Positions 11,245 through 16,994 of a DNA stretch of 25,124 nucleotides are shown piece after piece (positions within the stretch are counted from its first letter, which is position 1; every line of letters starts with the position of its first letter). The translations under genes and the position numbers were made by a program. Source of the stretch: a virus; IMG/VR virus record IMGVR_UViG_3300010885_010691, positions 1-25,124 of that record. One strand, 5' to 3'. The notes under the pieces were generated by a model, which saw only the letters and a program-made list of their open reading frames with translations, searched no databases and was not told the origin of the DNA.

Positions 11245-11730
11245 TTGGAAATTGAAAAAGTAGCGTTAAACAAATTAAAGTTTGACCCAACTAATGCGCG
11301 CAAACATTCCGCACGTAATATAGAAGTTATTGCTAATTCATTAAAAGATTTTGGTCAACGTAAACCTATTGTTGTTACTGCGTTTGATGTAGTAGTTGCT
11401 GGTAATGGAACTCTTGAAGCAGCAAAAACTTTAGGATGGAAAGATATTGAAATTGTTCGCGTTCCCGAAGATTGGACTGAAGAACAAACTAAAGCGTTTG
11501 CGTTAACAGATAATCGTTCTGCTGAGTTAGCAGAGTGGGATACAAGTGCGCTCGCTTCTCAACTTCTTGAATTAAGTGATTATTTTGATATTCAAGATTT
11601 TGGTTTTAATCCTTTAGTACAACAAGAAGTAGAAACACCGCCTACTGATTTTCCTGATTTTAGTAATGATGCAAAGACCGCGTATTGCTGTCCTAAATGC
11701 AATTACGAATGGAATGGCGCACCCAAATAA
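11245..11730 (+). CDS. ParB-like protein of the phage DNA-modification type
   Basis: A 161-residue protein starting at TTG. It has a ParB N-terminal domain: VALNKLKFDPTNARKH, a following helix, GQRKPIVV, and AGNGTLEAAKTLGW (about 52-65), then a helical segment with ALTDNRSAELAEWD. The C-terminus ends in CCPKCNYEWNGAPK, a single zinc-type knuckle often seen in phage ParB-like proteins. The domain lacks the long linker and dimerisation parts of chromosomal ParB. Such ParB-like proteins are repeatedly found next to phage DNA methyltransferases and base-modifying enzymes, where their exact role is unsettled. It shares a base with the next start and opens the six-gene cassette ending at 14711. Confidence 0.85.
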   Translation: MEIEKVALNKLKFDPTNARKHSARNIEVIANSLKDFGQRKPIVVTAFDVVVAGNGTLEAAKTLGWKDIEIVRVPEDWTEEQTKAFALTDNRSAELAEWDTSALASQLLELSDYFDIQDFGFNPLVQQEVETPPTDFPDFSNDAKTAYCCPKCNYEWNGAPK

Positions 11731-12572
11731 TGACTCACGAACTTGCTGAGCCTGTTAGAAACATACTGTTAGAGAATAGTAAGGCTGATGGTTCCTGCGG
11801 CATACTCCTTTCTAGTGGCGTTGATTCAAATAGTATTTTGGCAAGTTTGTTGCGTAACGGAATCAAACCAACGGTTTATTCTTTTCGTGTAGCAGGGCAT
11901 TACTCAACTGATTTTCGTTATGCGGCACGTACAGCAAAAAGATTGAATTTAGATTTTGTTGAAGTAGAAATATTGCACGACCTTGATTCAATTATTAGGG
12001 ATGTCCGGTGGGCTATTCACTATTTAGGTTTCCGCAAAAAAGCAGATATTGAATGTACTATCCCTGTTAAACATATTATTGACAAAGCGCGTGAAGTAGG
12101 AACTGAAAACTTATTCTCTGGCGCGTTCGGTGACCATTATTTTGGTACTACAAGAAAATGTCACGTTACTGCTTACACAGGTAATAATCTTGATGACCCT
12201 ACTTGGCTGAATAAGTATCGTGAAGAATCTTTGGCTGACTTAACTATGAGCCAAACTCATAGGTTGGGAAGATATGCAAAGCCGTTTGGCATAACGGTAC
12301 ACGCTCCATACGACAGTCCACCTCTTGTTAAAGTATTTCATAACTCTTCTTGGCGTTCAATTAACAAACCAAAACAAAAACTTCCTGTACGCGATGCTTT
12401 TCCTGAGATGGAAATTTGGGGAGTTGGTAAAAAGAATCAACCTTTACAACTTGGTGATTCTCGTATAGCAAAAACATACGAACAACTTTTAACCTCTGAT
12501 TTGAATACAGGTAATTGGAAATCAGTAGTTGGTATTTATAATTCAATAGCGAAAGAGAAAACAAATGCCTAG
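11730..12572 (+). CDS. Asparagine-synthetase-like ATP-dependent ligase (no glutaminase domain)
   Basis: A 280-residue protein matching the C-terminal synthetase half of AsnB. The PP-loop SSGVDS (S28-S33) binds ATP pyrophosphate. SGAFGDHYFG corresponds to the SGxxxDxxFG motif. KLPVRDAFPE and the following KKNQPLQLG match the C-terminal K-x-LR-x-AF region. Family members activate a carboxylate with ATP and attack it with ammonia or another amine. The N-terminal glutaminase domain of AsnB is absent, so free ammonia, a partner or another amine would be needed. The start at 11730 (TAATG with the previous stop) is preferred over an ATG at 11697. The gene overlaps the CmoA homologue by eight bases, which suggests its substrate is a carboxylate made by this cassette. 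Confidence 0.82.
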   Translation: MTHELAEPVRNILLENSKADGSCGILLSSGVDSNSILASLLRNGIKPTVYSFRVAGHYSTDFRYAARTAKRLNLDFVEVEILHDLDSIIRDVRWAIHYLGFRKKADIECTIPVKHIIDKAREVGTENLFSGAFGDHYFGTTRKCHVTAYTGNNLDDPTWLNKYREESLADLTMSQTHRLGRYAKPFGITVHAPYDSPPLVKVFHNSSWRSINKPKQKLPVRDAFPEMEIWGVGKKNQPLQLGDSRIAKTYEQLLTSDLNTGNWKSVVGIYNSIAKEKTNA

Positions 12573-13263
12573 AGATGAAGTAATGGCTGGCGATAAATGG
12601 AAATTTGATGCTGATGTAACAGAAGTATTTGACGATATGTTGTCTCGTTCAATACCTGATTATGTTGGTATGCGTAGAGCCACGACTGAGTTAGCGTTAC
12701 GGTTTGCACAAAAAGGTACGGATATTGTTGACCTTGGTTGTTCACGTGGAGCCGCATTAAAACCAATTATTCAAGCATTAGGCGTAGATGATTATGATTA
12801 CATAGGGCTAGAAGTATCTGAACCAATGATTGAAGCCGCAGAATTAGAAATACCTAATGCTGAAATCTATAATTTTGATTTAAGAGATGGTTATCCAGAA
12901 GTTCAAAGTTCTGTAACGTTATCTATATTAACTTTACAATTTGTTCCTATTGAATACCGCCAAAGAATTATCCAAGATGCTTATGAATCAACCGTATCTG
13001 GTGGCGTGTTTTTATTCGTTGAAAAAGTATTAGGTAGTGACGCAGTTTCGGATAAAGTTCTTGTTGATACATACCTGAATCGCAAAGGCGAGAATGGTTA
13101 CACACAAGAACAAATAATTGCTAAGCGCAGAAGTCTTGAAGGCGTTCTTGTTCCCGTTACAAGTGACTGGAACGTTGACCTTATGGAACGCGCTGGATTT
13201 ACTAACGTTGAATGTTATTGGCGTCAACTTAATTTTGCTGGATGGTTTGGTATTAAAAAATGA
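12565..13263 (+). CDS. cmoA: CmoA-like carboxy-S-adenosylmethionine synthase
   Basis: A 232-residue class I SAM-fold protein that aligns by eye along nearly its whole length with E. coli CmoA. It has FDADVTEVFDDMLSRSIPDY, the SAM loop VDLGCSRGAA (55-64), LTLQFVPIEYRQRII, VSGGVFLFVEKV, and NGYTQEQIIAKRRSLEG, and a C-terminal NFAGWFGI like NFGSLVAL. CmoA converts SAM and prephenate into carboxy-SAM. R188 here aligns with E. coli R199, the residue recalled as holding the carboxylate of carboxy-SAM. In bacteria CmoA feeds CmoB for tRNA modification, but no CmoB is present here, while a DNA methyltransferase with a motif X Arg is. The likely job is to supply carboxy-SAM for DNA. A plain methyltransferase is the alternative. 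Confidence 0.88.
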   Translation: MPRDEVMAGDKWKFDADVTEVFDDMLSRSIPDYVGMRRATTELALRFAQKGTDIVDLGCSRGAALKPIIQALGVDDYDYIGLEVSEPMIEAAELEIPNAEIYNFDLRDGYPEVQSSVTLSILTLQFVPIEYRQRIIQDAYESTVSGGVFLFVEKVLGSDAVSDKVLVDTYLNRKGENGYTQEQIIAKRRSLEGVLVPVTSDWNVDLMERAGFTNVECYWRQLNFAGWFGIKK

Positions 13264-13481
13264 ATATTGAAAACGTTATGGAACACGGCGCAGAAGCCCA
13301 TAAAGACTTAACGGTAACTTTACCTGTTTGTTGTTACCGCGAAATCATTCGCTTAATTGCTATGGATATTCAAAATGCTCCTGTACCAGAAGAAATGACT
13401 TGGCAAGAACGTATTGGATTTTTAATCGCCAAATCTAATCTTTCCAATATGGTCAGGGAGAATATAAATGCCATCATATGA
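13260..13481 (+). CDS. Small hypothetical protein inside the modification cassette
   Basis: A 73-residue protein starting MNIENVMEHGAEAHKDLTVT, with a CC pair at 24-25 and helices after it (YREIIRLIAMDIQN, WQERIGFLIAKS). It overlaps the CmoA homologue by four bases (ATGA) and the zinc-ribbon gene by 14, so it is made with the cassette. No family is recognised. It may be a cofactor or regulator of the modification enzymes, or an unrelated passenger. Confidence 0.65.
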   Translation: MNIENVMEHGAEAHKDLTVTLPVCCYREIIRLIAMDIQNAPVPEEMTWQERIGFLIAKSNLSNMVRENINAII

Positions 13482-13638
13482 TTTTGTATGTAACGATTGT
13501 GGCGAAAAGATAACAGAAACTTTTGGTTTTCACGAAAACCATCTTGTTGATTGTCCTCAATGCCTAAAACAAATGAGAAAAATAATCAAAGCAACGCCAG
13601 CAGTATTTCGTGGAACTGGTTGGGGTGGAAGTAAATGA
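13468..13638 (+). CDS. FmdB-type small zinc-ribbon protein
   Basis: A 56-residue protein with the FmdB pattern: MPSYDFVCNDCGEKI (C8, C11), then CPQC (C29, C32), and a C-terminal ATPAVFRGTGWGG like the V-x-F-x-G-x-GF end of the family. Family members are common in Actinobacteria and their phages. Their function is largely unknown, though they are often annotated as regulators. AGGGAG precedes the ATG, and the TGA overlaps the methyltransferase start by four bases, coupling the two genes. Confidence 0.85.
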   Translation: MPSYDFVCNDCGEKITETFGFHENHLVDCPQCLKQMRKIIKATPAVFRGTGWGGSK

Positions 13639-14711
13639 ACCCTAATTATGTAATACCAACTATGGCTGACGTGGCTAAGGTTAAAGGCACAAACGGTTAC
13701 AAGATGATTAGTACCTTTAGTGGTTGTGGTGGTTCCTGCTTAGGTTTTGAAATGGCTGGCTTTGATATTCTTTGGGCTAATGAATTCATAGAAGAAGCAA
13801 GAACAACGTACGCCGCAAATCACGATACCGTTAAAATGAATGGTCAAGATATTCGTGAGATAACCGCCGAACAAATCCTTGAAGAAACAGGATTACAAGT
13901 AGGCGAACTTGATTTGTTTGAAGGCTCTCCACCTTGTTCTTCCTTCTCTATGGCTGGAAGTCGTGAAAAAGCGTGGGGCAAAGATAAAAAATACAGCGAC
14001 AAGAATCAACGCTCTGATGATTTATTCTTTGAATACTCTCGCTTGGTTAAAGGATTACAGCCCAAAGTATTTATTGCTGAGAACGTTGCTGGCTTAGTAC
14101 GCGGCAAAGCAATCGGTTATTTCAAGGAAATCGTAAAGGAATTATCTGACGCTGGTTATTTAGTTAACGCTAAAGTGTTAGATGCTTCTTGGTTAGGAGT
14201 TCCACAGGCTCGCCAAAGGTTAATCATTATTGGAGTACGTAATGACCTTGTAAAAAAGTTCAACGTTAAGCCAGAGTTTCCAACGCCGTTACAATCTCGT
14301 TATGTGTTGCGCGATGTAATTGACGTCAATGAAGAACGCGTTACACACGACCCAGAAACAAATCACGATATTACTCTTGACCGTTACGCTGTTGGTAACG
14401 CGTACGATGCTTTGCGTATGGGAGAACAATCTCAAAAGTATTTCCAACTTGTCAGACCATCTTTAGATAAGCCTATTGGAACTATTACCGCTACTGGTGG
14501 AGTAGTTGGCGCCGCAAGCGTTACTCATCCATTACAAAAACGTAAGTTCACTCTTGGAGAATTACGTACGCTGAGTTCTTTTCCTGCTGACTTTGAATTA
14601 ACAGGAACGTTTCAACAACGTTGGGAACGTATTGGAAGAAGCGTTCCACCACTTATGGCTAAGGCTATTGGTGATGCAATTCGTTACAACATACTTGACA
14701 CGTTACGTTAG
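13635..14711 (+). CDS. Cytosine-C5 DNA methyltransferase with Arg in motif X, possible DNA carboxymethyltransferase
   Basis: A 358-residue protein with the full cytosine-C5 methyltransferase motif set. Motif I is STFSGCGGSCLGFEMAGF. Motif IV is GSPPCSSFS with catalytic C101, and motif VI is ENV (149-151). Motif VIII is QARQR (191-195), motif IX is RKFTLGELRTLSSFP, and motif X lies at 333-339. The last reads IGRSVPP where nearly all relatives have IGNSVPP or IGNAVPP, so R335 replaces the conserved Asn next to the methyl donor. Replacing the equivalent Asn of M.MpeI with a basic residue allows use of carboxy-SAM, as recalled from published work. With a CmoA homologue in the same operon, this enzyme probably adds a carboxymethyl group to cytosine C5. 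The target-recognition region (about 205-295) is short, so a short recognition sequence is expected. Ordinary methylation remains possible. Confidence 0.92.
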   Translation: MNPNYVIPTMADVAKVKGTNGYKMISTFSGCGGSCLGFEMAGFDILWANEFIEEARTTYAANHDTVKMNGQDIREITAEQILEETGLQVGELDLFEGSPPCSSFSMAGSREKAWGKDKKYSDKNQRSDDLFFEYSRLVKGLQPKVFIAENVAGLVRGKAIGYFKEIVKELSDAGYLVNAKVLDASWLGVPQARQRLIIIGVRNDLVKKFNVKPEFPTPLQSRYVLRDVIDVNEERVTHDPETNHDITLDRYAVGNAYDALRMGEQSQKYFQLVRPSLDKPIGTITATGGVVGAASVTHPLQKRKFTLGELRTLSSFPADFELTGTFQQRWERIGRSVPPLMAKAIGDAIRYNILDTLR

Positions 14712-15269: not shown

Positions 15270-15733
15270 TGGCTGGTAAAGCAAGACCATCGCGCATAAC
15301 TCCATCGGTATTAGAACGCGAGCGCAAAGTATTGGAATTGCGACGTGGAGGATTAACGTTTGATTTAATAGCCAAAGAACTTGATTTCAAACACGCGTCA
15401 GGAGCGCATAAGGCTTATCTAAATGCCTGTAAAAGAATCGTTCTATCTGAGGTTGTTGAGATTCGTAACATAGAAACTGAACGTTTGGATATTGCACAAA
15501 CGGCAATATGGAACGGCGTATTACGTGGAGATATACCAGCAATTAACACGCTACTAAGAATTATGGAACGCAGAGCAAGATTGCTTGGTTTGGATTCACC
15601 TACAAGGGCGCAGATTGAGGTTACTACTTATGACACAGGAACTATTGACGCAGAAGTCCAAAGACTTGTCGGCTTACTTGGCACATCGAACAGCACGAAG
15701 GGTGCTTTGGACGCACCAACTAGCGCGACCTGA
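15269..15733 (+). CDS. Probable terminase small subunit
   Basis: A 154-residue protein with an N-terminal helix-turn-helix-like region (RERKVLELRRGGLTFDLIAK, then KHASGAHKAYLNA). A helical middle follows (ERLDIAQTAIWNGVLRGD) with RIMERRARLLGLD, a pattern common in phage small terminases. It would recognise the packaging site on concatemeric DNA and work with the large subunit. It shares a base with the previous stop and overlaps the large-subunit gene by about 104 bases in another frame. The call relies on these patterns and position. Confidence 0.75.
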   Translation: MAGKARPSRITPSVLERERKVLELRRGGLTFDLIAKELDFKHASGAHKAYLNACKRIVLSEVVEIRNIETERLDIAQTAIWNGVLRGDIPAINTLLRIMERRARLLGLDSPTRAQIEVTTYDTGTIDAEVQRLVGLLGTSNSTKGALDAPTSAT

Positions 15734-16994
15734 ACAAGTTCCAAACGATGAAGAAGAATGGAACACGTTATTGCTATTGGCTGGTCGTGGTTTTGGAAAG
15801 ACTCGTACTGCCGCAGAATGGTTAGCGTGGCAAGCCATAAGGTTTCCTAAAACTCGTTGGGCTATTGCCGCACCTACTCACGCTGACGCTAGAGATACTT
15901 GCGTTGAAGGTGAATCTGGAATTCTCAATATCTTGCGAGAGTATGGCGTACTGAAAGATTACAACCGTTCTATTTCTGAAATCTTTCTTGATAATGGTTC
16001 GCGTATGAAGTTGTTTTCTGGTGAAGAGCCTGACCGCTTTCGTGGTCCACAATTTCACGGCGGTTGGTTTGATGAGTTAGCAGCATTTAAGTATCCAGAA
16101 ACGTGGGACCAATATAAGTTTGGTTTGCGACTTGGTACTCACCCAAGAACAATCGTTACTACTACGCCACGACCAACTAAGTTGATTAAAGGTTTAATGG
16201 CAGACCCAACAGCCAAGATAGTTCGTGGTTCAACTTTTGATAACGCTAAGAATCTTGCCCCGTCTGCGCTCGCTGACCTCAAACTTAAATATGAAAACAC
16301 GCGCTTGGGGCGTCAAGAATTATACGGAGAAATCCTTGATGTTGTTGAAGGTGCATTATGGAATCGTGAACTTATTGAAGCGGCACGAATAACTCCTATT
16401 GAAGTACCGCCTTTGGTTCGTATTGTTATTGGCGTTGACCCTGCTGTAACAAGTGGAGAAACAAGCGATTTAACTGGAATCGTGTCTGCTGGTATAGATG
16501 CTACAGGTCATTACTACATCCTTGATGATAAATCGTTACGCGCTTCTCCTGATACTTGGGCGCGTGTAGCAGTTAACCTTTATCAAGACCGTAACGCTGA
16601 CAAGATTATTGCTGAAACAAATAACGGTGGGGATATGGTTATCATCCTTATGAAGCAAGTTGACCATTCTGTTGCTACTAAAAAAGTAACAGCAACTAGA
16701 GGAAAGCAACTCAGAGCAGAACCAATCTCATCGTTATACGAACAAGGCAGAGTTCATCACGTTGGTTATTTTGCTGAACTAGAAACGCAGATGTGCGAAT
16801 GGACACCGATGGATAAGGATTCGCCAGATAGACTTGATGCATTAGTCTGGGCTCTTACAGAATTAAATACTGGTGGTGCTAGTATGATTGCGCTCGCTGG
16901 TATGTCTTTGCTTTGTGTAAAGTGCGGTATGCCATCGCCTAAGACAGCAAGTATTTGTTTTAGTTGCGGTACTCAACTTGAAAGGTCAGCGTAA
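15630..16994 (+). CDS. Terminase large subunit with a C-terminal zinc ribbon
   Basis: A 454-residue protein. The ATPase has Walker A LLAGRGFGKTR (50-60) and Walker B WFDELAAF (146-153). The RNase H-like nuclease has D270 in GVDPAV, E329 in AETNNGG and D403 in DRLDALVWAL. It pumps DNA into the prohead and cuts it. After the nuclease it adds a zinc ribbon, C429-x2-C432 and C443-x2-C446, which is unusual for the family. The ATG at 15630 has GAGG ten bases upstream; an in-frame TTG at 15585 has no better site. It overlaps the small-subunit gene by 104 bases. Confidence 0.95.
   Translation: MTQELLTQKSKDLSAYLAHRTARRVLWTHQLARPEQVPNDEEEWNTLLLLAGRGFGKTRTAAEWLAWQAIRFPKTRWAIAAPTHADARDTCVEGESGILNILREYGVLKDYNRSISEIFLDNGSRMKLFSGEEPDRFRGPQFHGGWFDELAAFKYPETWDQYKFGLRLGTHPRTIVTTTPRPTKLIKGLMADPTAKIVRGSTFDNAKNLAPSALADLKLKYENTRLGRQELYGEILDVVEGALWNRELIEAARITPIEVPPLVRIVIGVDPAVTSGETSDLTGIVSAGIDATGHYYILDDKSLRASPDTWARVAVNLYQDRNADKIIAETNNGGDMVIILMKQVDHSVATKKVTATRGKQLRAEPISSLYEQGRVHHVGYFAELETQMCEWTPMDKDSPDRLDALVWALTELNTGGASMIALAGMSLLCVKCGMPSPKTASICFSCGTQLERSA

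Follow-up and report, generated by a model that had tools for sequence, protein, structure and literature searches.

A viral contig of 25,124 bases (IMG/VR record IMGVR_UViG_3300010885_010691, hereafter the window) carries on its plus strand, at positions 11245 to 14711, a cassette of six overlapping open reading frames (ORFs) that very probably forms a phage CmoA-CmoX-CmoY system, as judged from its gene content, its catalytic and cofactor residues, and its recurrent linkage in other viral contigs. The genes encode, in this order, a ParB-like protein, an AsnB-like ligase, CmoA, a 73-residue orphan protein, an FmdB-type zinc ribbon, and a C5-cytosine methyltransferase (Table 1). Successive ORFs overlap by 34, 8, 4, 14, and 4 bases, as is common in operons with translational coupling. 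The original prediction, made from the letters of the DNA, had described these six overlapping genes, two of them simply as encoding small proteins, and ORF analysis and family searches confirmed this observation, whereas its interpretation was partly supported. It had also proposed that CmoA makes carboxy-S-adenosylmethionine (carboxy-SAM), that the C5 enzyme uses it to write 5-carboxymethylcytosine, and that the AsnB-like ligase converts this base to an amide. Diagnostic residues, gene linkage, and a proven homologous system (PMC12783734) speak for this route; the central idea is correct but was already published in December 2025, so that the pathway is not new as a kind.

The published system was reported by Yang et al. 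(Nat Commun, 7 December 2025) for Synechococcus phage S-B43. There, CmoA provides carboxy-SAM, CmoX places 5-carboxymethylcytosine (5cxmC) at GC motifs, and glycine is joined to this base by the AsnB-like CmoY; S-B43 virion DNA contains the resulting 5gcxmC base, and 5cxmC DNA is resistant to HhaI (PMC12783734). In addition, the authors reported CmoX candidates numbering in the thousands, in whose vicinity CmoA, ligases, and ParBc proteins occur (PMC12783734).

The closest relative of the window methyltransferase in the PDB is SpCmoX (8yf3), followed by HaeIII (E = 3.4e-24). The SPPC nucleophile motif is present, with Cys101 aligned to Cys98 of SpCmoX. In motif X, where Gly-Asn is usual, the window enzyme has the sequence IGRSVPP, whose Arg335 aligns with Arg350 of SpCmoX and with the position of Asn304 in HhaI. 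Arg350 is the residue of SpCmoX that touches the carboxymethyl group of carboxy-SAM, and the R350N variant accepted neither cofactor (PMC12783734). In an alignment of 136 CmoX proteins, the window enzyme keeps all well-conserved columns but five, none of which is catalytic. Its identification as a CmoX with predicted carboxymethyl transfer from carboxy-SAM is thus supported by its sequence.

The solved relatives of the window CmoA are PDB 4gek (2.5e-27) and YecO (1im8; 2.2e-27). In Escherichia coli CmoA, Arg199 forms a salt bridge with the carboxylate (PMC3663124), and the equivalent residue is kept in the window protein as Arg188. In an alignment of 129 phage-associated CmoA proteins, the window CmoA departs from no well-conserved column. 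As 80 of these 129 proteins, including SpCmoA, which is proven to be active, carry Glu at the Arg199 position, this Arg is not essential to the phage CmoA family. The record is the whole IMG/VR contig, which is classed as linear and therefore probably is a genome fragment; within it no CmoB matched a model, in line with what had been noted originally.

To assess linkage, we searched viral contigs for CmoX irrespective of whether CmoA was present, and the counted set comprised 76 distinct loci (denoted by L numbers) with an Arg/SPPC enzyme and adequate flanks, presence being scored in the fetched stretch. This search for the same gene set in other phages, suggested by the original prediction, found CmoA near CmoX in 73 of the 76 loci; 65 of the 76 also had ParB nearby, and 32 had a ligase. 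Many independent viral contigs contain a ParB-(ligase)-CmoA-CmoX cassette, and its arrangement therefore reflects more than chance. The closest relatives of the window show the same gene order, either as ParB-CmoA-CmoX or as ParB-ligase-CmoA-CmoX. In a small control (n = 3), no CmoA was found in the fetched flanks of L190 (Asn), L191 (Met), and L073 (Leu), the nearest SPPC relatives without Arg at the motif X position.

The ligase, encoded beside CmoA within the cassette, has the PP-loop SSGVDS (S39 to S44), and its AlphaFold2 model (mean predicted local distance difference test score of 92; 39 sequences) matches the fold of AsnB best (PDB 1ct9, E = 1.6e-9) and also that of beta-lactam synthetase. 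The protein begins directly at the synthetase domain, Asn_synthase is the only domain found in its 291 residues, and a family search revealed no N-terminal glutaminase (glutamine amidotransferase) domain. The absence of this domain makes an amide formed with ammonia from glutamine unlikely and favors an amino acid. Arg153-Lys154 are retained at the [ST][KR]K site conserved in the SpCmoY-like class, which adjoins the AsnB pocket loop. In the alignment made in this analysis, on which the amine assignment rests, glycine is the single best guess for the amine used.

Ligase relatives in viral contigs were found by an alignment-based search; the window ligase as the sole query against viral contigs found nothing. 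In the nearest relatives, with 36-40% identity, GDDR[NDE]C occupies the position of the SKK site, so that the Lys of the pair is replaced by Asn, Asp, or Glu; the window ligase keeps Arg-Lys. Its pocket loop differs from those of both S-B43 and its own nearest relatives. The replacement of the SKK pocket motif by GLTAGGLFGDDR[NDE]C was seen in the ligases of L177, L016, L098, L024, L022, and L011, and such ligases are a candidate subclass with another amine.

Several observations weigh against assignment of the cassette to a CmoA-CmoX-CmoY system. The window CmoA scored 140.8 bits against TIGR00740, below the equivalog cutoff of 193.3, as expected of a divergent phage member. The identity of the window ligase to S-B43 CmoY is only about 27%, its pocket loop reads SGAFGDHYFGTTRKC versus SGIGADGYYGVSKKA in SpCmoY, and its residue 247 is Asn instead of the His found in 72 of 76 relatives. 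The pair at 153-154 and residue 247 might help to bind the amine, and the ligase subclass may use a different one. Furthermore, close relatives possess CmoA and CmoX but no ligase on the known contig, and in five of them no Asn_synthase gene was present anywhere on the known contigs; the ligase step is therefore not obligatory. Some members may leave 5-carboxymethylcytosine bare, or the ligase may be encoded off the contig. A replacement ligase was sought among the genes in the CmoX-CmoA gap of ligase-less loci, but no carboxyl-modifying enzyme was found; most gap genes were low-complexity or reverse-strand ORFs, and a uracil-DNA-glycosylase-like gene occurred in five loci. In five cassettes (Table 1), the gene for a small protein of this superfamily adjoins CmoX and CmoA or separates them, and the two proteins that were tested matched PF03167.

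In the mechanism we propose, CmoA would make carboxy-SAM from SAM and host-derived prephenate. CmoX would flip cytosine out of its target motif, Cys101 would attack C6, and the carboxymethyl group would be moved to C5 while Arg335 grips the carboxylate, yielding 5-carboxymethylcytosine. The ligase would then adenylate the carboxylate of this base with ATP and join an amine to form an amide, the amine most likely being glycine or another small amino acid. ParB would probably aid the engagement of DNA by CmoX, and the bulky base would shield virion DNA against restriction by the host. For this phage, we infer the identity of the product, the amine, the target motif, and the role of ParB. If glycine is joined, as happens in S-B43, the suggestion that amidation neutralizes the charge fails, since a carboxylate then remains.

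The generic C5-methyltransferase and methyltransferase family matches would also be expected of an ordinary orphan 5-methylcytosine enzyme accompanied by a host-like CmoA of tRNA modification, but Arg in place of the motif X Asn, the closest similarity to SpCmoX, the adjacency of CmoA in nearly all counted loci, and the lack of a CmoB match in the record make this explanation extremely unlikely. More weight is due to alternatives concerning the last step. If the ligase took ammonia, the final base would be the primary amide 5-carbamoylmethylcytosine. Membership of the window ligase in the Asn_synthase family agrees with this idea, as do the ligases with a glutaminase domain beside CmoX in related phages, a cluster for which ammonia was proposed as the amine (PMC12783734). 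The window ligase, however, would need free ammonia, because it has no glutaminase domain, and it keeps Arg153-Lys154 at the site typical of SpCmoY-like enzymes; we consider a primary amide improbable. Thus, of the amide product originally predicted, amide formation is supported, but an amide with an amino acid is more likely than the carbamoylmethyl form.

An amine besides glycine and ammonia, such as another amino acid or a polyamine, has a considerable chance of being used, though we do not favor it. The loop around residues 142-155 is unlike that of SpCmoY, the nearest relatives have lost the SKK site, and alternative amines were predicted for small ligase clusters (PMC12783734); on the other hand, the window ligase retains the Arg-Lys pair lost in these relatives, and family searches of the contig proteins recognized no amine-synthesis gene. 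We regard it as possible but somewhat doubtful that the window ligase belongs to a subclass of CmoY joining 5-carboxymethylcytosine to an amine new to DNA, which would give a new natural base. Across loci, the ParB-CmoA-CmoX core is stable and the ligase is absent, exchanged, or divergent, which makes the ligase the place to seek new DNA bases and useful amide-forming enzymes.

The two small genes had been counted among the parts of the system. Both overlap their neighbors, and five close relatives (L017, L177, L178, L182, and L184) encode a related zinc ribbon directly after CmoX, so that a role of both in the pathway, with the zinc ribbon acting for example as carrier or adaptor, was considered. 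The 73-residue protein, however, matched no family, and none of the fetched loci encodes a homologue of it; most cassettes lack the zinc ribbon, and CmoX, CmoA, and CmoY of S-B43 function without either gene (PMC12783734). Participation of both is therefore very unlikely. As a conserved cassette part the 73-residue gene was rejected, and it probably is an inserted accessory gene outside the core; the case for the zinc ribbon, a phage accessory gene located elsewhere in relatives, was left weak.

The ParB-like ORF (11230/11245-11730) most likely starts with TTG at 11245, which is preceded by the ribosome-binding site GGAAGGAA. An alignment of 14 cassette ParB proteins revealed a C-terminal tail CPKC(x)YEWxG, in which CPKC is invariant and is followed by Tyr and usually Glu-Trp; the CPKC cysteines possibly form half a zinc site. 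ParB is the probable DNA-binding partner of the methyltransferase and might tether CmoX to DNA. Besides the ParB tail and the FmdB protein, a third zinc-ribbon-like element lies close to the cassette, at the C terminus of the large terminase (15585-16994), where a double zinc ribbon matched weakly (PF12773, 0.0079, below the cutoff).

Table 1. Genes of the cassette in the window and uracil-DNA-glycosylase superfamily genes in related loci
Feature	Position	Strand	Family or structure match
ParB-like (ParBc) protein, 161 aa	11245..11730	+	phrog_620 5.9e-37; ParB_N PF02195 1e-4
CmoY-type ATP-dependent amide ligase (predicted), 291 aa	11697..12572	+	Asn_synthase PF00733 1.3e-10
CmoA, carboxy-SAM synthase (predicted), 232 aa	12565..13263	+	TIGR00740 5.5e-41
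Orphan protein, 73 aa	13260..13481	+	no family match
FmdB-type zinc ribbon, 56 aa, accessory	13468..13638	+	Zn_ribbon_8 2.5e-10; FmdB TIGR02605 3.4e-13
CmoX, DNA cytosine C5-carboxymethyltransferase (predicted), 358 aa	13635..14711	+	DNA_methylase 3.4e-61; PDB 8yf3 2.3e-67
Uracil-DNA-glycosylase superfamily gene	L187:7516-7974
Uracil-DNA-glycosylase superfamily gene	L029:7541-8008
Uracil-DNA-glycosylase superfamily gene	L167:6866-7306
Uracil-DNA-glycosylase superfamily gene	L015:5009-5962
Uracil-DNA-glycosylase superfamily gene	L049:4115-4909

The contig is that of a phage. Genes for RecT, an exonuclease, a replication initiator, RusA, a single-stranded DNA-binding protein, and an HNH protein lie upstream of the cassette, and an RNase E-like gene at the usual position of the small terminase, the large terminase, the portal, and the prohead protease lie downstream. 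A nucleotide search with the whole window against phage records gave no match, and defence-system models applied to the window proteins gave generic methyltransferase matches only.

Several variants of the cassette were observed in other loci. A tandem pair of CmoX genes, both of the Arg/SPPC type, is located between CmoY and CmoA in L140, L141, L151, L160, L162, L165, L172, and L174, and perhaps serves two target motifs. Moraxella phage Mcat8 (L189, 5499-7699) has ParB, CmoX (RMGRMVAPF), and a CmoA-like methyltransferase in a row, all annotated as hypothetical, and no ligase was recognized beside them; this phage, whose host is known, could show bare 5-carboxymethylcytosine. C5-methyltransferases with Arg at motif X but GFPC or GTPC for SPPC, which fall outside the published SPPC filter, are encoded beside CmoA and CmoY in L106 (4943-5995), L108, L110, L111, L113, L115, and L128, and also in L119 (4319-5164), L135 (6746-8005), and L149 (4809-5996). 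In a small tree, a fully supported branch separated them from SPPC CmoX, and non-Arg enzymes were placed among them; judging from this tree, the switch to Arg may have had more than one origin. C5-methyltransferases with GSPC and a Gly-Gly motif X without Arg adjoin CmoA and CmoY in L006 (6813-7820; Staphylococcus phage vB-SscS-F1) and L119 (5192-6187). L119 additionally has the Arg/GFPC enzyme, whereas the fetched stretch of L006 showed no enzyme with Arg.

With sequence data alone, our analysis independently confirms a pathway that was first reported in December 2025; the phage studied here is far removed from the cyanophage S-B43. S-B43 (MN018232, L002) and the window each encode, within a single operon, CmoA together with an SPPC-containing C5 enzyme that has Arg at the cofactor-selecting position, and both have an AsnB-like ligase that lacks a glutaminase domain. 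They differ in gene order, which is ParB-ligase-CmoA-two small genes-CmoX in the window and CmoA-ligase-CmoX in S-B43, and in the pocket loop of the ligase; identities are about 39-43% for CmoX, 29% for CmoA, and about 27% for the ligase. The ParB gene of the window has its counterpart in the ParBc proteins found beside many CmoX in the published survey (PMC12783734). Streptomyces phage TurkishDelight (L003) likewise has ParB, CmoX, ligase, and CmoA in a row, and its CmoX, with Arg at motif X, is 48% identical to that of the window. Its ligase of 466 residues, however, contains a glutaminase domain (GATase_6, GATase_7) and probably is of the ammonia type, unlike the window ligase; about a dozen further loci have such a ligase of 450-520 residues beside CmoX. 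The bacterial CmoA-CmoB modification of the tRNA wobble position also uses carboxy-SAM from CmoA, but its acceptor is tRNA hydroxyuridine, whereas that of the window system is predicted to be DNA cytosine. Finally, in engineered M.MpeI N374K (cited in PMC12783734), a basic residue in place of the motif X Asn selects carboxy-SAM, as is predicted for the window enzyme; there it is an engineered Lys, whereas the window CmoX has a natural Arg and a partner CmoA encoded by the phage itself.

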